This document shows, piece after piece, positions 4,993 through 38,365 of a stretch of DNA of 64,000 nucleotides. The DNA lies in assembly GCF_004300825.1 (NCBI RefSeq), contig NZ_CP036250.1, forward strand, positions 806,001 through 870,000, read 5' to 3'. The translations under genes were made by a program, and so were the position numbers. Every line of letters starts with the position of its first letter. The first letter of the stretch is position 1. A model generated the notes under the pieces. The model was not told the origin of the DNA and did no database searches. It worked only from the letters and a program-made list of their open reading frames with translations. This DNA is from Egicoccus halophilus. GTDB lineage: Bacteria; Actinomycetota; Nitriliruptoria; Nitriliruptorales; Nitriliruptoraceae.

Positions 4993-5160
4993 ATGCAGGC
5001 AAGCGCAGCCGTCCCGCCGATGTCGACGCTGCTCGCGGGCGTCGACCCCTCGGCGCAGCCGGTGCAGATCGTCCGCTTGGTGCCCACCGCCGTGCAGGAG
5101 CTCGGGGTCCACGCCGGGCAGGGCAACCACCTGGCGGTACCCGGGCCGCTGCCACCCTGA
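4993..5160 (+). CDS. Small hypothetical protein
   Basis: A 55-codon frame starting at ATG 4993, preceded seven bases upstream by a good Shine-Dalgarno (GGGGGAG). The product is MQASAAVPPMSTLLAGVDPS followed by VQIVRLVPTAVQELGVHAGQ and a Pro-rich end. It sits alone in the 384-base gap between glnD and ino1. No family is recognised and there is no signal peptide or membrane segment. The ribosome site and codon pattern support it, its shortness does not. The rest of the gap holds a promoter-sized stretch before ino1 and nothing else I can name. Confidence 0.4.
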   Translation: MQASAAVPPMSTLLAGVDPSAQPVQIVRLVPTAVQELGVHAGQGNHLAVPGPLPP

Positions 5161-5328
5161 GCCGGGTCGGCGGAGGACGTGGGAGGAGGGGCCGGCAGCG
5201 ATCCGCCCGCCGACCGGCCGGGTGGCACGCCGGGTGGCGCGTGGTCGCCGTCGCGCCGCCTACCCTGTCAGGTCCGGGCGCCAGCGAGTCGAGGTGGCGC
5301 CGACCTCCCTGCGTGAGCGGAGCAACCC

Positions 5329-6690
5329 GTGACCGATGCCGCGACCGAGCCGCGTCTCCCCGCCCCCGACATCGCCGCTGCCGAGGGCAAGCTCGGCGTC
5401 GTCTGCGTCGGCCTCGGCGCCGTCGCGACCACGTTCATCGCCGGCGTGGAGCTCATCCGCCGTGGCATGGCCGAGCCGGTCGGGTCGCTGTCGCAGATGG
5501 GCACCATCCGGCTCGGCAAGCGCACCGAGGAGCGTGCGCCGGTGATCCGGGACTTCGTGCCGCTCGCCGCCCTCGACGACATCGTCTTCGGTGCGTGGGA
5601 CCCGTTCCCCGACGACGCCTACGTCTCGGCCGCCAACGCCGGCGTGCTCGACACCGCGCGGCACCTCGAGCCGATCGCGGACGCGCTGCGCGAGATCCGA
5701 CCGATGCCGGCCGCCTTCGACCCGGCCTACGTCAAGAAGCTCGACGGTCCCAACGTCAAGAGCGACCGGTCCAAGCGGGCGCTGCTCGAGGGCATCCGTG
5801 CCGATCTGCGCGACTTCCGCGAGGAGCACGGCTGCGACCGCATGGTGATGATCTGGTGTGGCTCGACCGAGGTCTACATCGAGCCCTCGGCCGTCCACCA
5901 GGACCTCGATGCCTTCGAGGCCGCCATCGACGCCGACGACCCCGCGATCAGCCCGTCGATGCTCTACGCCTACGCCGCCCTGCTCGAGGGGGTGCCCGTC
6001 GCCAACGGCGCACCGAACCTGACCCTGGACACGCCGGTGTTGCGCCAGTTCGCCTCCGACCACGGCGTGCCCATCTGCGGCAAGGACTTCAAGACCGGGC
6101 AGACCCTGGTCAAGACCGTCCTCGCACCCATGTTCAAGGCGCGCATGCTCGGGATGGCGGGCTGGTACTCGACCAACATCCTGGGCAACCGTGACGGTGA
6201 GGTCCTCGACGACCCGGAGTCGTTCAAGACCAAGGAGACCTCGAAGCTCGGGGTGCTGGACACGATCCTGCAGCCGGAGACCTACCCCGAGCTCTACGGC
6301 GACCTCCACCACGTCGTGCGCATCAACTACTACCCGCCCCGCGGCGACAACAAGGAGGGCTGGGACAACATCGACTTCTTCGGGTGGCTCGGCTACCCGA
6401 TGCAGTTGAAGGTCGACTTCCTCTGCCGCGACTCGATCCTGGCCGCGCCGCTGTGCCTCGACCTGGCGCTGTTCCTCGACCTGGCCGCCCGCGCGGGGAT
6501 GTCCGGCATCCAGGAGTGGCTGAGCTTCTACTTCAAGGCGCCACAGGTCGCGCCGGGCCTGTACCCGGAGCACGACCTGTTCATCCAGCAGACCAAGCTC
6601 AAGAACACCTTGCGTTGGCTGATGGGCGAGGAGCAGATCACGCACCTCGGGGTCGAGTACTACGCCGACGACTACCTCCCCGAGGACTGA
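5329..6690 (+). CDS. ino1: Inositol-3-phosphate synthase
   Basis: A 453-residue NAD-dependent myo-inositol-1-phosphate synthase, converting glucose 6-phosphate to inositol phosphate for phosphatidylinositol, mycothiol-type thiols or compatible solutes. The Rossmann start GKLGVVCVGLGAVATTFIAG, the stretch NGAPNLTLDTPVL, the catalytic-lysine region (GKDFKTGQTLVKTVLAPMFK), the NILGNRDG motif and the C-terminal KAPQ..PGLYPEHDLF are all present. The start is GTG 5329 behind GGAGCAA. It is followed by a terminator and a convergent dehydrogenase gene, so it is probably monocistronic. Confidence 0.95.
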   Translation: MTDAATEPRLPAPDIAAAEGKLGVVCVGLGAVATTFIAGVELIRRGMAEPVGSLSQMGTIRLGKRTEERAPVIRDFVPLAALDDIVFGAWDPFPDDAYVSAANAGVLDTARHLEPIADALREIRPMPAAFDPAYVKKLDGPNVKSDRSKRALLEGIRADLRDFREEHGCDRMVMIWCGSTEVYIEPSAVHQDLDAFEAAIDADDPAISPSMLYAYAALLEGVPVANGAPNLTLDTPVLRQFASDHGVPICGKDFKTGQTLVKTVLAPMFKARMLGMAGWYSTNILGNRDGEVLDDPESFKTKETSKLGVLDTILQPETYPELYGDLHHVVRINYYPPRGDNKEGWDNIDFFGWLGYPMQLKVDFLCRDSILAAPLCLDLALFLDLAARAGMSGIQEWLSFYFKAPQVAPGLYPEHDLFIQQTKLKNTLRWLMGEEQITHLGVEYYADDYLPED

Positions 6691-27905: not shown

Positions 27906-28072
27906 GGGGCTACCACGTCGTCGCGACCCGTGCGCGCGCCGGCCAGGAAGTACCTCAATCGTGGGGAGAGGGCCGGCGCGCCCCGCATGCCGGAACCGGT
28001 GCACGTGACGGGGTGGCCGCCGGCTGGTCCACTCGCGGCCAGGAGCCAGGGGCGGCTCCGGAACTCCGATCG

Positions 28073-28150
28073 AGGTGTGGGGCGAGGATCCGGCTGGCGG
28101 TAGATGGTCGCCGAGCCAACCGGGGAGTCAGGGGCGAAACCGACACACCT
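28073..28150 (+). promoter_or_regulatory. Leader element copy A: candidate structured RNA switch
   Basis: First of three related elements. P1 pairs 28073-28079 (AGGTGTG) with 28144-28150 (CACACCT). P2 pairs 28089-28095 (TCCGGCT) with 28118-28124 (AACCGGG), with one mismatch. P3 pairs 28096-28099 (GGCG) with 28109-28112 (CGCC) around the conserved nine-base loop GTAGATGGT. The joining block GAGTCAGGGGCGAAACCGA is conserved in all copies apart from one or two bases. The sequence CCTTCCC (28148-28154), which overlaps the 3' side of P1, is the exact complement of the Shine-Dalgarno GGGAAGG (28179-28185). A small hairpin (28162-28166/28172-28176) lies between. The element ends 43 bases before the ATG at 28194. 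Confidence 0.75.
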
Positions 28151-28193
28151 TCCCGATGTCGCAGCGTCACCCGCTGCTGGGAAGGCACACACC

Positions 28194-28694
28194 ATGCGCA
28201 AGATCCTCGCGTCCACCGTGGCGGCCGCCGCCGCGCTCACGTTCTCCGCGACGGCCGCGTCGGCCGCCGTCGAGCTCGACCCGGCCACCGGCGCGGGCTT
28301 CGTCGGCAAGGGCGACGTCCAGACCGTGCTCGGCTGGAACAACAAGCAGCTGCAGGACCGGGCCGACGCGCTCGTCTTCACCTTCGAGAGCGTCGCCGAG
28401 GTCTCCTGGTCGTGCACCAAGACCCACGAGGCCGGCAACAGCGGCAAGGAGGTCGTGACGGTGCAGGAGCGCTCCCGGGTCACCACGACCAGCGGCGTCG
28501 TGTCGCACACCGAGCGGGTCCGCAACCAGATCACCGGCTTCTGGCTGACCGGCTTCGCCGGCGAGGCCACGACCGTCGACGGTCCGGCGATCGGGACGTG
28601 CCCGGCGGAGCAGAGCGGCTTCGTCTTCGACGACAACCTCGAGACCGTCGTCGTCGGTGGCGGGTTGCAGGTCAACGGTGTCGCGTTGAGCTGA
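28194..28694 (+). CDS. Small exported protein of unknown function
   Basis: A 166-residue protein with a clear Sec signal peptide (MRKILASTVAAAAALTFSAT, cleavage after ASA near residue 24). The mature part starts with AVELDPATGAGFVGKGDVQT, then LGWNNKQLQ, a pattern I associate with secreted actinobacterial proteins of unknown function. Two Cys (in SWSCTK and GTCPAE) could form a disulfide. There is no anchor motif. ATG 28194 lies eight bases after GGGAAGG, the site that leader copy A can mask. A strong terminator follows, so it is monocistronic. Confidence 0.85.
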   Translation: MRKILASTVAAAAALTFSATAASAAVELDPATGAGFVGKGDVQTVLGWNNKQLQDRADALVFTFESVAEVSWSCTKTHEAGNSGKEVVTVQERSRVTTTSGVVSHTERVRNQITGFWLTGFAGEATTVDGPAIGTCPAEQSGFVFDDNLETVVVGGGLQVNGVALS

Positions 28695-31386: not shown

Positions 31387-34300
31387 TTACTTGCGCAGGC
31401 GGAAGAAGGCCGAGAGGGAGGAGCCGTCCGCGAACGTCACCGTCGCGCGGTAGCAACCGTCCGCCGTCACCTTCGGCGTCTGCCAGTTCTGGATGAACTG
31501 CTTGTCCGCCGCGTCGTACCGGAGCGTGGTGCTGCCGGTGGTGACGAAGTCGACCTCGTCACTGGTGGCCCCGGTGTTGCAGGTCAACTTGGTGGCCGTG
31601 AAGCCCGTCACCGCTGCGGTGGTGGTCTGCTCGACCCCACCGGCGAGGACGTTGAACTTCAGCGGGATCGTCGAGCCGCCCTTGGCGCTGTTCCAGACGG
31701 TGCTGGCGGTCGCCGCGGGCGCCGTCGCCGGGGCGGCGACGAAGACCGAGTTGGCCGCGCCGACCGGCTGGTGGAAGCCGTGACCCTGGGCGTTCCAGGC
31801 GGTGATCGACGCCTTGGCGGTGACGGGTACGACGAGGGTGTAGTTGCCCGCGTCCGTGCCCGACAACGACGCCCCGTTCAGCGTCACCGTCTTGCCCGAT
31901 CCGACCGCTGCGGTGTCGAACGTCGCCGTCCCACCCGTCAGTCGGACAGCGTCGCCGACGACCACGTCGGCCAGGCTGCGGTCGCTGGCCGACGCCGCGG
32001 TGGTGCCGTCGAAGACCTTGTTGGCGGCGGCGAACGAGCCGGTCACGGACCGCTTGGTGATGTCCGCGCTGGACGTCGCCGTCGTGTTGCTCAGGGTGTA
32101 GTTGCGGGCGTCCGCACCAGCGATCGTGATGCCGGTCACGGTCACGGTCTTGCCCGTGCCCACCAGCTTGTCGTCGAACGCGGCGGCCGCGTGCGCGGCG
32201 GTGACCACGTCACCCGACAGCTTGTCGGTGGACAGCGAAACCGACGCGGCGGTGGTGCCGTCGTAGGTCCTGCTGGTGGCGTTGGCGGTCACGGTCAGCG
32301 ACCGGGCGGTGATGTCGGCCGTGGTGGTCGACACACCGTTCCAGGTGTAGTTGGCGGCGTCCTCGCCCTCGAGCTTGGCGCCGGTGAGGGTGACGGTCTT
32401 GGCGGTGCCAACGTTCTTGTCGTCGAAGGTGGCGGTGCCGCCGGTCAGCTGCACCTTGTCACCGTCGACCGTGCCGACCAGGCTGGTGGCCTTGACCTCG
32501 GCGGTGGTGGTGCCGTCGTAGGTCTTGTTGGCGGCGGCGAAGGTGCCGGTGATGCCCTTCGGGGTGATGTCGGCCGTGGTGTCGGCGACGGTCAGGGCGT
32601 AGTTGCCAGCGTCGGGGCCGTGCAGCGCAGGGTCCACCGCCGTGACGGTCTTGCCCCTCCCGGCGTCCTTGGTGTCGAAGGTCGCGCCCTGCAGTTGCAG
32701 GCTGACCTCGTCACCCTTCTTGACACCGGTGAGTTCGACGCTGCGAACGTCGGCGGCGGTGGTGCCGTCGTAGACCTTGTCCGCGACGGTGAAGGACCCG
32801 GTGACGGCCATCGTCGTGATCGACGCCGTCGCGGTCACCTCCGTGAGCTTCGGCGCGTAGTTGCTGGCGTCGTCGCCCACGAGCGAGATGCCGCTGACGG
32901 TGACCGTCTTGTCCGTGCCGACGTGCCGGTCCGCGAACTGCGCGTCGCCCTTGGCCGAGACCGTCTCGCCCTCGAGGACGTCCTCGACCGACAGCGTGAC
33001 CTCGGCGGCGGTGGTGCCGTCGTAGACCTTGTCCTCGGCCGTCGCGACGACCTCCACCACACGGTGGCCGATGTTGGCGCTGGTGTTACCGACGGAGGCC
33101 AGGGTGTAGTTGCGGGCATCGGCGCCTTCGATCGAGGCCTTGCCCGCGGTCACCTTGATGCCGGTCGCCGCGTTCTTGCTGGCGAAGGTGACGTCCCGGA
33201 GTACGAGGGTGACCACGTCGTCACCGAGCGCGCCGTCGAGCGTCTTGGCCATCGCCACGGCGGTGGTGGTGCCGTCGTAGACCTTGTTCGCGGCGGTGAA
33301 GCTGCCGGTCAGGGTCTTGGGGGTGATGTTCGCCTTCGCGGCGGCCACGGGAGCCAGCGTGTAGTTGGCCGCGTGGTCGCCGGTGAGGCTGGCGCTGGCG
33401 GTCACGTCGATGTCGTCGGCGACGTCCTTGCTGGCGAAGCCGGCGTTGGCGAGGTCGAGGGTGACCTGGTCGCCGTCGATGACGCCGGTGAGCGTGCGGC
33501 CGGAGACGGTGGCGGTGGTGGTGCGGTCGTAGACCTTGTCGGCGGCGGTGAAGCTGCCGGTCAGGGTCTTGGGGGTGATGTCCGCCTTCGCGGCGGCGAC
33601 GGGAGCCAGCGTGTAGTTGGCCGCGTGGTCGCCGGTGAGGCTGGCGGTGGCGGTCACGTCGATGTCGTCGGCGACGTCCTTGCTGGCGAAGCCGGCGTTG
33701 GCGAGGTCGAGGGTGACCTGGTCGCCGTCGATGACGCCGGTGAGCGTGCGGCCGGAGACGGTGGCGGTGGTGGTGCGGTCGTAGACCTTGTCGGCGGCGG
33801 TGAAGCTGCCCGTCAGGGTCTTCGGGGTGATGTCCGCCTTCGCCGTGGCGACGGCGGGAACCGTGTAGTTGGCCGCGTGCTTGCCGGCGAGGGTGGCCTC
33901 GGCGGTGACGACGACTCCGGTGCCGGCGCTGCTGGTTGTGAAGGCCGCGGAGCGGAGCTCGAGGCGGACCTCGTCACCCTCGACGACGCCGTCCAGTGCG
34001 GGGTCGGAGACCGTGGCGTCGCGGCTGCCGTCGTAGACCTTGTCGGCGACGACGAAGCTGCCGCTCAGTGGCTTCGGGGTGACGACGAGCGTGTCGACGA
34101 CCGTCTCGGCCCGGTAGTCGGGGTGGTCCAGCGAGGCCTGCACGCGGTAGCTGCCGGCGTTCCGCGGGCTCGCCGACTCGCCATCGCGCGAGTAGCTCAC
34201 CGAGATGCCGGTGAGGTCACCGACCGAGGTCGTCACCGTCGCCGCGAAAGTCGAGCCGTTGTAGACCCGGCTCAGCCCGCTCAGGGTCAGCTCGGTGGTC

Positions 34301-36036
34301 GCCTTCGCGACGGCGACCGTCTTGGTGGCGGTGCTCGCCTCGTGGTTGTCGTCGCCGGCGCGGGTGGCCACGACCTCGCAGGTCCCGGTGCCGCGGGTGA
34401 TCTCCAGCTTCCCGGCGTTCGCGCCGGTGCCGATGCGGCAGGCGTCGCTGCCGCTGCTCACCGCGAAGCCGATGGCGCCGGTGCCGCTGCCGCCGGTGGC
34501 TCCCAGCTCCAGGGTGTCACCGAAGGTGCCGCGGTCGGGGGTGGTGATGGTCAGCGTGCTTTGGGCGACCCGGTCGATGGCGAACTGGGCGGTCCCGCGG
34601 CTGCTCCGGTGGTTCGTGGTGCCGGCGAAGTCGGCGGTCGCCGTGGCCGTGCCCGCGTTGGTGTTCGCGGAGTAGACGACCTCGACCGGCTGCTTGAAGC
34701 CGGCGACACCGGTGACCTCCGCCGAGCAGGGCGTGAGGGGCGAACCGGTGTACGGCCGGCTCGACGGACAGGTCACCGTCGTGGTGGTGGCGGCCTTGTC
34801 GATGGTGAAGGTCGTGCTGTCGGTGCTGGCGAGGTGGTTGGTGGTCGCGGCGAAGCTGGCCGCCGCCGTCGCCGTGCCGGCGTTCACGTTGTCGGTGTGG
34901 GTGACCGGGACGGTCTGGTCCAGGCCGCCGGCGCCGGTGGCCTTCGCCGTGCACGGGGTCTGCGCCGAGCCGTCGTAGGTCGTGTCGGCCGGGCAGCTGA
35001 CGACGGTGCTCGAAGGCGCCTTGGCGACGGTCAGCGTGCCGTTGCCGGTGCTGCCGAGGTGCGTGCCGTCCTCGGTGAAGGTCGCGGTCACCGGGTGGGA
35101 GCCGGCGTTCCGGCCGCCGAGGTCCGCGGTCAGGGAGGTGACGCCCGACGCGTTGGTCGTGGCCGAGCCGATGGTGGTGTCACCGACGGAGAAGGCGACG
35201 GTCTTGCCGCCGACGCCCGTGGAGCCGGCGCTCAGCGTCGCGGTGTAGGTGGCGGACCCGCCGAAGGTGCCGGCTCCGCTGACCGCGTTGATCGACGTGG
35301 TCGTCTTCACCGGAGCCGCGGGAGCCTGCACGTAGTTGGCGGTGTAGTCGTTCGTGCCGTTGTCCCCGAAGCCGGGGGCGCACAGCGTCGCGTCGGTGGT
35401 CGAGAAGTTGCTCGGTCCGGTCCAACTCGAGAAGACCATCGAGCCGATCGTTGCCGGTGCCGTGACGCGGATCCACTCGCCATTGCTGGCGCCGGCGGCC
35501 AGCGTGTTGCCCGGTGAGTGGCGCACGGTGCCCGAGGCGCTGGTCGGCCTCGAACCACTGACGTTCCCGGCGGGGCAAGCGCTGCTGGTGTGCTTGGTCC
35601 AGGTCGCCTCGAAGTTGGTGGCGTTGTTCGTGGTAAGGAAGCGGAGGTTGCCGTCCGTGAAGCCGTGGGTCACCGTCCCGGACACCGCGCCGGTGGCGAC
35701 GACCTCGTAGGTCGCCACGAACCAGTTCGGCAGGTTGAACGCGTCGACGATCCTGCCGTCCGCGTCGGCGACCACGTCGACGTTGCGACGCCAGGTCTTG
35801 GTCTGGTCGTCGTCGACGTCGATGTTGACGGTCTCGCCCGGCTGCCAGTTGCCGCCGGTCAGCGTGACGAGCTCGCCGGGGGCGTAGTCGTCCTTGTCGC
35901 TGGTGATCCACGGCGACGTGTCGGTCTGTGCCAGTGCCACGTTGGGCAGCAACATCAGCACCGCCAGCGTGAAGGCGATGACGGAACGCAGGTGGCCGCG
36001 TCGCGGCGACGGTGTCACGGAAGTTCGAGGCGCCAC
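31387..36036 (-). CDS. Giant exported YDG/Ig-like repeat protein with PxKF C-terminus
   Basis: A 1,549-residue exported protein. GTG 36036 has GGGGAGGG upstream and starts the signal peptide (MAPRTSVTPSPRRGHLRSVI, cleaved near ALA-Q36). Then come an Ig-like domain with DDYAPGELVTLTGGNWQPGE, a Cys-containing domain, Ig-like Big_3 repeats, an MBG-like domain, and nine YDG domains of about 84 residues each, each marked by (D/N)KVYDGTT and ending D-A-x-NY(T/A). The C-terminal domain has STIPLKFNV (PxKF type). There is no LPXTG or anchor helix. Such proteins act in adhesion or as surface fibres; that role is inference. Leader copy C lies 56 bases upstream. A very long antisense frame exists but is a GC-phase shadow. 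Confidence 0.88.
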   Translation of the reverse strand: MAPRTSVTPSPRRGHLRSVIAFTLAVLMLLPNVALAQTDTSPWITSDKDDYAPGELVTLTGGNWQPGETVNIDVDDDQTKTWRRNVDVVADADGRIVDAFNLPNWFVATYEVVATGAVSGTVTHGFTDGNLRFLTTNNATNFEATWTKHTSSACPAGNVSGSRPTSASGTVRHSPGNTLAAGASNGEWIRVTAPATIGSMVFSSWTGPSNFSTTDATLCAPGFGDNGTNDYTANYVQAPAAPVKTTTSINAVSGAGTFGGSATYTATLSAGSTGVGGKTVAFSVGDTTIGSATTNASGVTSLTADLGGRNAGSHPVTATFTEDGTHLGSTGNGTLTVAKAPSSTVVSCPADTTYDGSAQTPCTAKATGAGGLDQTVPVTHTDNVNAGTATAAASFAATTNHLASTDSTTFTIDKAATTTTVTCPSSRPYTGSPLTPCSAEVTGVAGFKQPVEVVYSANTNAGTATATADFAGTTNHRSSRGTAQFAIDRVAQSTLTITTPDRGTFGDTLELGATGGSGTGAIGFAVSSGSDACRIGTGANAGKLEITRGTGTCEVVATRAGDDNHEASTATKTVAVAKATTELTLSGLSRVYNGSTFAATVTTSVGDLTGISVSYSRDGESASPRNAGSYRVQASLDHPDYRAETVVDTLVVTPKPLSGSFVVADKVYDGSRDATVSDPALDGVVEGDEVRLELRSAAFTTSSAGTGVVVTAEATLAGKHAANYTVPAVATAKADITPKTLTGSFTAADKVYDRTTTATVSGRTLTGVIDGDQVTLDLANAGFASKDVADDIDVTATASLTGDHAANYTLAPVAAAKADITPKTLTGSFTAADKVYDRTTTATVSGRTLTGVIDGDQVTLDLANAGFASKDVADDIDVTASASLTGDHAANYTLAPVAAAKANITPKTLTGSFTAANKVYDGTTTAVAMAKTLDGALGDDVVTLVLRDVTFASKNAATGIKVTAGKASIEGADARNYTLASVGNTSANIGHRVVEVVATAEDKVYDGTTAAEVTLSVEDVLEGETVSAKGDAQFADRHVGTDKTVTVSGISLVGDDASNYAPKLTEVTATASITTMAVTGSFTVADKVYDGTTAADVRSVELTGVKKGDEVSLQLQGATFDTKDAGRGKTVTAVDPALHGPDAGNYALTVADTTADITPKGITGTFAAANKTYDGTTTAEVKATSLVGTVDGDKVQLTGGTATFDDKNVGTAKTVTLTGAKLEGEDAANYTWNGVSTTTADITARSLTVTANATSRTYDGTTAASVSLSTDKLSGDVVTAAHAAAAFDDKLVGTGKTVTVTGITIAGADARNYTLSNTTATSSADITKRSVTGSFAAANKVFDGTTAASASDRSLADVVVGDAVRLTGGTATFDTAAVGSGKTVTLNGASLSGTDAGNYTLVVPVTAKASITAWNAQGHGFHQPVGAANSVFVAAPATAPAATASTVWNSAKGGSTIPLKFNVLAGGVEQTTTAAVTGFTATKLTCNTGATSDEVDFVTTGSTTLRYDAADKQFIQNWQTPKVTADGCYRATVTFADGSSLSAFFRLRK
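33277..33780 (-). repeat. Nearly identical 252-bp tandem duplication in the YDG gene
   Basis: Units 33277-33528 and 33529-33780 are each exactly 252 bases (84 codons, one YDG domain) and differ at only a handful of bases; most of their length is identical. The other seven YDG domains are clearly diverged. This marks a recent unit duplication and a likely hotspot for repeat-number variation. Confidence 0.9.
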
Positions 36037-36092
36037 GAGGCACCCTCCCCTGTACTCGGGACGCCGACCTGATGCGGCGTCCAAACCTTGGG

Positions 36093-36167
36093 GGTGCGTC
36101 GGGTTCGCCCTGGCTCCCCACCGGACTCGGCGACCAACTACCGCCCAGTGGATCGTTGCCTCACACC
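36093..36167 (-). promoter_or_regulatory. Leader element copy C: candidate structured RNA switch
   Basis: Read on the minus strand. P1 pairs 36167-36162 (GGTGTG) with 36098-36093 (CGCACC), where an A-to-G change keeps a G-U pair. P2 pairs 36152-36146 (TCCACTG) with 36123-36117 (CGGTGGG). P3 pairs 36145-36142 (GGCG) with 36132-36129 (CGCC) around the loop GTAGTTGGT. GCACCC at the P1 3' strand can alternatively pair with GGGTGC (36045-36040), which overlaps the Shine-Dalgarno GGGGAGGG. A GACGCC/GGCGTC hairpin lies between. The element ends 56 bases before the GTG at 36036. Confidence 0.72.
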
Positions 36168-36241
36168 ATTGCGAAGCCCTTCGCTCGCAACAGGAACTCT
36201 CGGGCTCGAACCTGAGCCGAATCTGAAACCGGCGGAGAGTT

Positions 36242-36255
36242 CATCAATATTGATG
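36242..36255. promoter_or_regulatory. Perfect 14-bp palindrome in the divergent promoter region
   Basis: CATCAATATTGATG is a perfect palindrome, AT-rich in a GC-rich genome. It lies near the middle of the 257 bases between leader copies B and C, where both transcripts must start. It is a good candidate operator for a dimeric regulator of the two surface-protein genes. The rest of the 514-base divergent gap holds the two leader elements and presumably both promoters; I could not assign -35/-10 boxes with confidence. Confidence 0.5.
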
Positions 36256-36424
36256 GTCGGCGGCACGAACCGGTGGGTCTAGCGAGGGCAGCGGCACCTC
36301 GCTTCCGGTAACGGAATGTGTGTCATTGAACGCACAAAGTTATTGGTCGGGCGACGGTAACACTGCGCGTTCGCTTCACTGCTTTCCGCAAGGAGCTGGA
36401 GAACTGCAAGGGGCACTCTCCGGT

Positions 36425-36502
36425 AGGTGTGGGGCACTGATCCAACCGGCGGTAGTTGGTCGCCGAGCCGGTTGGGGAGCCAGGGGCGAAACCGACACAC
36501 CT
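36425..36502 (+). promoter_or_regulatory. Leader element copy B: candidate structured RNA switch
   Basis: P1 pairs 36425-36431 (AGGTGTG) with 36496-36502 (CACACCT). P2 pairs 36441-36447 (TCCAACC) with 36470-36476 (GGTTGGG), fully paired. P3 pairs 36448-36451 (GGCG) with 36461-36464 (CGCC) around the loop GTAGTTGGT. The joining block GAGCCAGGGGCGAAACCGA matches copy A at all but one base. CCTTCCCG (36500-36507), overlapping the P1 3' strand, complements the Shine-Dalgarno region CGGGAAGG (36534-36541) over eight bases. A GACGCC/GGCGTC hairpin (36516-36521/36527-36532) lies between. The element ends 48 bases before the ATG at 36551. Confidence 0.75.
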
Positions 36503-36550
36503 TCCCGCTGGATCCGACGCCATACCGGCGTCCCGGGAAGGACCACACAC

Positions 36551-38365
36551 ATGCGCAAGTTCTTGGCGCTCTGCGCCATCACGACGTCGTTGACGGCGTT
36601 CGCGGGGCCCGCGCTCGCCGCTTCGACCGACACGGTTTCCGCCGAGCAGTCGTCGCTCGAGGAGTTGGAGGACGCACTCGCCACCGCGACCGCAGAGGTT
36701 GAGGCACTCGAGGCGGACGTCGAGGACGCCGCCGGTGACCTCGCCGCTGCCGAGCAGCGGCTCGCTTCCGCGGAGGCCGCCCAGGCGGCGGCCCAGCGGG
36801 CATACGACGCGGCCGTCGAGGCCCACGCTTCCGCGGTCGCCGCGGTCGCCGCTGCCCAGGTGGCCGTCGAAGGGGCGTCCGACGCCGACAACGCGGCACA
36901 GTCCGCGCTCGTCGAGGCGACTGCCGAGGCAGAAGCGGCCGCCCAGGCGGCCGCCAAGGCCGCGACCGCGGTCGCGGCGGCGCAGACCGAGTTCGACGCC
37001 GCCGTCGCGGACGTCGCCGATGCGACGCAACAGCGTGACGACGCCGCGAGCGCGGTGACCAGCGCCGAGCAGGCCGCCGTGGCCGCCCAGGCGAAGGTCA
37101 CCACCGCAACGACGGACCACGAGCTGGCGCTCGAGGCTCGGACGGTCGCCGCCGGTGCGGTCGACATCGCCGACGGGGCCCACGAGGCCGCCACGACGGC
37201 TCACCAGGACGCCCTCGGCGACCAGGAGGACGCCGCCGGACTCGTCGTCGCTGCCGAGCAGCTCGCCAAGCAGGCGGCCGACGCGGTCGCCGACGCCCAG
37301 GCCGCGGTGGACCTCGAGACGTCGAAGCTCGCGGGCACCCGCGCCGCCCTGTCCGCAGCCATCTCGGAGCGCGACGCGCTGCAGGCGGCGTACGACGCGT
37401 TCGCGTGCAACGAGAACGCGCAGAGCGCCGCGCAGGTCACGTGCCGTGCCGATCGCGCCGCGGCTCTCACCAAGCTGAACACCCAGAAGGGCGTGGTCGC
37501 CAACGCGGAGGCGGGTGTCGCTGCCGCACAGCAGCAGCTCACCGACGCCCAGGCCGCGCTGACCACGACCCAGTCGACGCAGGCGGTGGCGGACGCGGAG
37601 CTGAGCGCTGCGCGTGCCGAGCTGGCCGACGCCGACGCCGAGGTCGAGCGCACCTCCGCCGTCCTCGACGCTGCCACGACGCAGCTCGAGAACGCCACCA
37701 AGGAGTACGCGGTCGCGGACCAGCGCGTCACGACCACCGGCACGGCCCTGCAGGACGCGGCGGACGCCTTCGCCGGCGCGACCGACGCCCTGGACACGGC
37801 GCGTACCGGGCTGGTCGAGGCGGACACGGCGTTGACCGACGCCGAAGCACGGCTGGCCGCTGCCGAAGGCCAGCTCGCTGACGCCACCATCTCGCAGCGC
37901 CAGGCCGACGACGACTCGGCGGACGCCAACGCCGTCCTCGTCTCGAAGCGGGCGGCGGCGGACACCACCGCGGACGCGCTGGTCGTGGCGGAGGAGAAGC
38001 TCGACGACGCCAAGGCGGCCGAGCTCTCGGCCGCCGGTGACCTGGCCGACGAGAAGGCGGACCTGGCCGACGCCATGACCGAGGTCGACGGCGCGACCGC
38101 TGCCGTCACCGACGCGGCGGCGGCGCTGGCAGCGCTCGAGGGACGGCTGGCGATCGCCCAGGCCAACCAGGCGGCCGCGCAGCTCGCGGTCGACACCTGG
38201 GTCGCGCCGGCCCCGCCGGTGGTCGTCGCTCCGACGACGCCGGCGCAGCACCCGGGCTGCAACGGCATCGCCAACGCGCAGGCGCAGGTCGCCAAGGGCG
38301 GCAACGGCAAGGGCAACGCGGCGAACGCGCTGAGCAACGTCGCCAGCAAGCTCGCCTGCAGCTGA
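36551..38365 (+). CDS. Exported coiled-coil protein
   Basis: A 604-residue exported protein. The signal peptide MRKFLALCAITTSLTAFAGP is cleaved after ALA near residue 23. Residues 28-555 are almost entirely Ala/Asp/Glu/Gln-rich heptads, a very long coiled coil with many repeated AEA, ADA and AAQ steps. It is interrupted once near residues 285-300 by a Cys-containing turn (FACNENAQ and QVTCRAD), which looks like a hairpin bend closed by a disulfide. A Pro-rich linker (VAPAPPVVVAPTTPAQ) leads to a small tail with two Cys (HPGCNGI and SKLACS). There is no sortase motif or anchor. ATG 36551 follows GGGAAGG, which leader copy B can mask. Function unknown; a spacer or matrix protein at the surface is possible. 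Confidence 0.85.
   Translation: MRKFLALCAITTSLTAFAGPALAASTDTVSAEQSSLEELEDALATATAEVEALEADVEDAAGDLAAAEQRLASAEAAQAAAQRAYDAAVEAHASAVAAVAAAQVAVEGASDADNAAQSALVEATAEAEAAAQAAAKAATAVAAAQTEFDAAVADVADATQQRDDAASAVTSAEQAAVAAQAKVTTATTDHELALEARTVAAGAVDIADGAHEAATTAHQDALGDQEDAAGLVVAAEQLAKQAADAVADAQAAVDLETSKLAGTRAALSAAISERDALQAAYDAFACNENAQSAAQVTCRADRAAALTKLNTQKGVVANAEAGVAAAQQQLTDAQAALTTTQSTQAVADAELSAARAELADADAEVERTSAVLDAATTQLENATKEYAVADQRVTTTGTALQDAADAFAGATDALDTARTGLVEADTALTDAEARLAAAEGQLADATISQRQADDDSADANAVLVSKRAAADTTADALVVAEEKLDDAKAAELSAAGDLADEKADLADAMTEVDGATAAVTDAAAALAALEGRLAIAQANQAAAQLAVDTWVAPAPPVVVAPTTPAQHPGCNGIANAQAQVAKGGNGKGNAANALSNVASKLACS

Follow-up and report, generated by a model that had tools for sequence, protein, structure and literature searches.

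Aptamers of the c-di-GMP-II-GAG type as probable translational ON riboswitches upstream of three genes for exported proteins in Egicoccus halophilus

Three aptamer leaders and their downstream genes

The window, by which we mean the whole 64,000-nucleotide stretch of Egicoccus halophilus DNA that was analyzed (contig NZ_CP036250.1, positions 806,001 to 870,000), carries three leaders, here called copies A, B, and C; each has an aptamer 5' of a co-directional gene, with the start codon some 40-52 bases downstream (Table 1). The covariance model RF03169, which describes the c-di-GMP-II-GAG riboswitch aptamer, matches copies A and B over the whole of its 86 positions and above the gathering threshold of 40 bits. 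Copy C falls 1.7 bits below this threshold in a full-length match (E 7.6e-6 in a search of 651 bases), and it was placed as family-like by that match together with the anatomy it has in common with the other two. When the 3.98 Mb genome was searched with the same model, copies A, B, and C were recovered along with one fourth match, which was dropped because its E value of 0.74 is at chance level. The family, which is said to have been described in a 2017 paper by Weinberg et al., is present in 35 of the 66 genomes from the host's class.

The riboswitches of copies B and C diverge from a single intergenic region (36088-36506), and a comparable divergent pair is found on contig 357 of genome G033 (5153-5263, minus strand; 5684-5792, plus strand). 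Stop-free reading frames cross aptamers A and B (28104-28193 and 36427-36550), and an ATG at 28104 is in frame with the copy A gene; these frames are probably a chance effect of the high G+C content.

All three downstream genes encode proteins that start with a signal-peptide-like segment, as judged by eye, and relatives of the same leader sub-type (defined below) likewise lie upstream of short or repetitive exported proteins. The genome holds 25 matches to GGDEF and about 22 to EAL domains of c-di-GMP metabolism; taken together with the exported products, this enzyme set makes c-di-GMP control of surface or matrix proteins plausible.

Table 1. Features of the three leaders and the genes that follow them (positions within the window; SD, Shine-Dalgarno).
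Feature	Position	Strand	Description	Evidence
Aptamer A	28069..28154	+	c-di-GMP-II-GAG	RF03169 covariance model, 47.4 bits
P1 5' strand A	28074..28079	+	GGUGUG, pairs with CACACC 28144-28149	alignment, fold
Anti-SD A	28148..28154	+	CCUUCCC; CC common with core P1, UU with A-U/G-U extension	sequence, fold, alignment
Hairpin A	28161..28177	+	GCAGCG-UCACC-CGCUGC, between anti-SD and SD	sequence, fold
SD A	28179..28185	+	GGGAAGG	complement of 28148-28154
Gene A	28194..28694	+	start ATG 28194; 166-aa protein, N-terminal signal-peptide-like segment, no Pfam match	
Aptamer B	36421..36506	+	c-di-GMP-II-GAG	RF03169 covariance model, 60.1 bits
Anti-SD B	36500..36507	+	CCUUCCCG, overlaps P1 3' strand (P1 core 36496-36501)	sequence, fold
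Hairpin B	36516..36532	+	GACGCC-AUACC-GGCGUC	sequence, fold
SD region B	36534..36541	+	CGGGAAGG, includes SD	sequence, fold
Gene B	36551..38365	+	start ATG 36551; 604-aa exported, coiled-coil-like Ala/Glu/Asp-rich protein, no Pfam match	
Aptamer C	36088..36172	-	c-di-GMP-II-GAG-like	RF03169 covariance model, 38.3 bits
Anti-SD C	36092..36097	-	GCACCC; 5/6 bases inside P1 3' strand CGCACC (36098-36093)	fold
Hairpin C	36059..36082	-	GGACGCC/GGCGUCC	sequence, fold
SD region C	36040..36050	-	GGGGAGGGUGC, SD and 3' flank; GGGUGC pairs with 36092-36097	fold
Gene C	31387..36036	-	start GTG 36036 (proposed); large exported repeat protein, nine YDG stretches and one MBG stretch	

Complementarity between the P1 strand and the ribosome site

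The first-pass annotation of this DNA had proposed that one strand of the outer stem of each leader, P1, overlaps an anti-SD sequence complementary to the ribosome site. Base-by-base examination confirmed the pairings and their coordinates: CCTTCCC is the exact complement of GGGAAGG in copy A, CCTTCCCG is complementary to CGGGAAGG in copy B (Table 1), and in copy C, on the minus strand, GCACCC (36097-36092) is complementary to GGGTGC (36045-36040), which overlaps GGGGAGGG (36050-36043). The small hairpin described between the two arms is likewise present in all three leaders.

Complementarity of this kind could be incidental, P1 3' strands being C-rich and ribosome sites G-rich, and copies A and B could be alike simply as paralogs. 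A background of 217 genes from the same genome, drawn from 20 stretches of 20 kb, was used for comparison; a complementary run of equal or greater length occurs at 4.1% of the background ribosome sites for copy A, 0.9% for copy B, and 7.4% for copy C. The complementarity of any single copy, taken alone, is weak and only moderately unusual. Within each whole leader, the ribosome site has its best complement where the P1 3' strand starts or directly after that point.

For a broader comparison, RF03169 sites were gathered from the family, order, class, and phylum of the host, with sites found by pattern in named genomes added, and a sub-type was defined as those host-class sites in which the P1 3' strand starts with CACACC or CGCACC. 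Among the 11 sub-type leaders that have a usable start codon, the P1 3' strand finds its best downstream partner at the ribosome site every time (11 of 11, 1.8 expected; window of -18 to +2, an SD-only window having overlooked several class relatives that pair between the SD and the start codon). The first-pass annotation had held that homologs without the complementarity would speak against its proposal. Every relative of the same sub-type proved to have it, whereas the other RF03169 sites of the class lean only weakly that way (13/47, 7.1 expected) and the terminator-type sites show no enrichment at the ribosome site (2/12, 2.0 expected); the outcome of this check is mixed, though informative. 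Among other sites of the phylum, the ribosome site is the best partner in 10 of 25 (3.9 expected), a count that covers a subset, as the fuzzy text search for the aptamer missed about 50 loci.

Over 91 sites, the P1 strand pairs better with its own SD than with that of another site (-9.4 versus -7.7 kcal/mol; none of 5000 permutations was as good), and inside the sub-type own pairing also exceeds that of swapped partners (10 of 5000 swaps as good); the sites compared are related, which inflates significance of the shuffle type, and these permutation figures are not to be read as probabilities. The pattern CACACCTTYCC-N8-38-GGRAAGG-N4-12-TG has nine matches in the 66 class genomes, all of them ending at an ATG, namely copies A and B and seven that coincide with RF03169 sites; the reversed pattern, used as a control, has none in the same 66 genomes.

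Covariation of the anti-SD/SD helix

Conservation of the helix was followed in an alignment of copies A and B with nine relatives (A3), for which compact segments of equal length were used, because MAFFT put the SD of L067 and L068 in the wrong place when entire leaders were aligned. Copy C, with its shifted register (GCACCC:GGGTGC), stands outside this count, and L077 is included though it has no start codon nearby. Every cell of the 7-bp anti-SD/SD helix (77 of 77) is paired in the alignment, which contains two double-sided changes (U-A to C-G in L028; C-G to U-A in L033) as well as two G-U variants, and displacing the partner by 1-3 positions lowers the pairing to 42-75%. The linker is divergent, while both of its flanks are kept.

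L077, on contig 81 of genome G006, is a sub-type leader with an intact anti-SD and GGGAAGG, possibly a decayed or orphan copy. L028 and L044 have identical leader sequences.

The case for an incidental complementarity thus has on its side the background frequencies above and the common descent of the sub-type members. It sits poorly with the preference for own over swapped partners, both across the 91 sites and inside the sub-type, with a helix kept through two double-sided changes, and with a linker that diverges between conserved flanks while terminator-type relatives show no excess; we consider it very unlikely.

Overlap of the anti-SD with P1

In the alignment of copies A and B with their relatives, the conserved P1 core is GGUGUG/CACACC, of six pairs. 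The UUCCC that lies beyond this core has a P1 partner in only 2-8 of 10 sequences, and, as these partners are not conserved, UUCCC is kept for pairing between the anti-SD and the ribosome site, not for P1. In the sub-type represented by A and B, only the CC is always common to core P1 and anti-SD; additional overlap comes from UU through A-U/G-U pairs in copy A, and from U, C, and C in copy B, whose stem runs longer. The earlier picture of an anti-SD overlapping the P1 3' strand is accordingly to be narrowed: in copies A and B the overlap always covers the CC, with UUCCC outside the core, and in copy C it is nearly complete, at five of six bases. Forming P1 and hiding the ribosome site are then only partly exclusive, the CC being the one part that both always use in A and B.

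With the CC as the only bases that P1 always takes from the anti-SD, a helix of five pairs, UUCCC:GGGAA, could survive ligand binding in A and B. We tentatively raise the possibility, while doubting it somewhat, that the A/B sub-type is a graded, ribosome-assisted "toehold" translational riboswitch, in which the ligand, with UUCCC lying outside P1, only shortens the hiding helix from seven pairs to five, and that this is specific to the class within a family that uses terminators elsewhere.

Folding and proposed mechanism

Comparison of alternative folds had been suggested in the first-pass annotation as a check on the proposal. The unconstrained minimum free energy structures predicted for all three leaders contain the anti-SD:SD pairing, with predicted pair probabilities of 0.59-0.94; when the aptamer pairs are imposed, B and C lose the exact anti-SD helix and A retains no more of it than CCC:GGG. 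With the six bases of core P1 blocked, opening the SD is predicted to cost 5.2 kcal/mol on average instead of 8.7 (4.3 if eight are blocked), and with other linker bases blocked the figure is 8.4 kcal/mol, in an energy model that leaves out the pseudoknot and the ligand. The predicted cost falls from 11.7 to 6.8 kcal/mol in copy A and from 11.0 to 5.6 in copy B; the modelled gain is small in copy C (13.4 to 11.2), and L028 shows no change.

These models also bear on the direction of the switch. Some SD bases are still paired in the aptamer-forced models, as might be expected if the ligand made the ribosome site less accessible and the leaders were OFF switches. Such a direction is nevertheless highly improbable, since the strand that hides the ribosome site is the one P1 needs, so that P1 formation lowers the opening cost; the terminator-type relatives, too, have an ON arrangement, the P1 3' strand forming the 5' half of the terminator in other families, which implies the same ON logic acting on transcription.

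The earlier reading of the leaders as translational ON riboswitches draws support, at the level of sequence comparison and modelling, from the catalogued family, a helix with compensatory changes, the competition of P1 in folding, and the specificity of the pairing to the sub-type. Copies A, B, and C are very likely c-di-GMP-II-GAG riboswitches that act on translation as ON switches; within this reading, the ligand, the ON direction, the size of the effect, and the roles of the proteins are inferred. In the proposed mechanism, the P1 3' strand and the pyrimidines that follow it (CCUUCCC in A and B, GCACCC in C) would pair with the ribosome site when ligand is absent, spanning the small hairpin and keeping translation low. 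The ligand, presumably c-di-GMP, would stabilize the aptamer, and P1, once formed, would withdraw the CC from the anti-SD of A and B, or five of six bases from that of C; with the anti-SD helix shortened or gone, the ribosome site would open and the exported, probably surface or matrix, protein would be made. A literature search for the ligand of the c-di-GMP-II-GAG variant returned nothing usable.

Other expression platforms among relatives

Most other RF03169 members of the class have a platform that differs from that of the A/B/C sub-type, and different platforms coexist in one class and even in one genome (e.g., G010, G011, and G015). Terminator-type sites (L087, L091, L092, L101, L116, L127, and similar) have a P1 3' strand beginning CCGATC, a hairpin, and a U-run. 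In most class sites that are not of the CACACC kind (L005-L032, L052-L066), a CCCGG-type P1 3' strand is followed by a hairpin of the GACG/CGTC type; in the non-CACACC class sites, P1 pairing is stronger with the mid-linker of the same site than with the mid-linkers of other sites (-11.2 versus -9.8 kcal/mol). The P1 strand of L009, L025, L026, L057, and L059 pairs directly upstream of the ATG. L021 and L069 (G012 contig 243, 3014-3205, minus strand) are two adjoining RF03169 aptamers on the same strand, possibly a tandem riboswitch. In Actinoplanes, the RF03169-like sites L038 and L051, with CCTTGG/CCAAGGAG, directly precede a gene for a product that resembles a nucleotide-sugar epimerase/dehydratase (GAGGSIGSE motif), so that a link to exopolysaccharide is possible.

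The frequent use of terminator platforms by other families with the aptamer, together with long GC-rich hairpins that could favor termination, lends some interest to a switch at the level of the transcript, in which the anti-SD hairpin would lead to Rho-dependent termination or to decay of untranslated mRNA, any effect on the ribosome being secondary. No U-run is found 3' of the hairpins in the leader sequences of A, B, or C, which are therefore not of the terminator type, and the partner kept by conservation is the ribosome site, suitably spaced from the start codon; on these grounds a transcript-level switch seems very improbable, and we retain the translational ON reading.

Relation to known systems and significance

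Anti-RBS control is a common riboswitch mechanism (PMC9481103), and RBS occlusion of a comparable kind has been mentioned for yjdF (PMC10987639). The E. halophilus leaders resemble translational ON riboswitches with an anti-RBS strand in that an aptamer stem strand competes with the anti-SD/SD hairpin; they differ in that A and B always share just two core P1 bases, and their response may be graded, not all-or-none. With the c-di-GMP-II-GAG family (RF03169, clan CL00127) they have in common the full-model matches of A and B, the aptamer core, and a host rich in c-di-GMP enzymes, with copy C departing from it by its sub-threshold score. The c-di-GMP-II riboswitches of Clostridia, a related aptamer class, include one coupled to a group I ribozyme (PMC9481103; PMC10043782), and tandem c-di-GMP-II examples are reported to control surface-protein genes (PMC9481103). 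Whereas the ribozyme-coupled system acts on splicing, the leaders described here would hide the ribosome site directly, and do so in a high-GC actinobacterium.

It is well supported that copies A, B, and C add examples of an established mechanism, in an aptamer family already catalogued, and do not represent a new one. For the specialist, interest may lie in how little P1 and anti-SD overlap in copies A and B, a feature that would give a graded switch, and in the variety of platforms attached to one aptamer family. The leaders offer a compact base-level model of how a single family of aptamers may be coupled, depending on the gene, to hiding of the ribosome site or to terminators. Signalling by c-di-GMP is usually tied to attachment and biofilm formation, and the proposed riboswitches would link it to three exported proteins of unassigned function in a little-studied group of actinobacteria.
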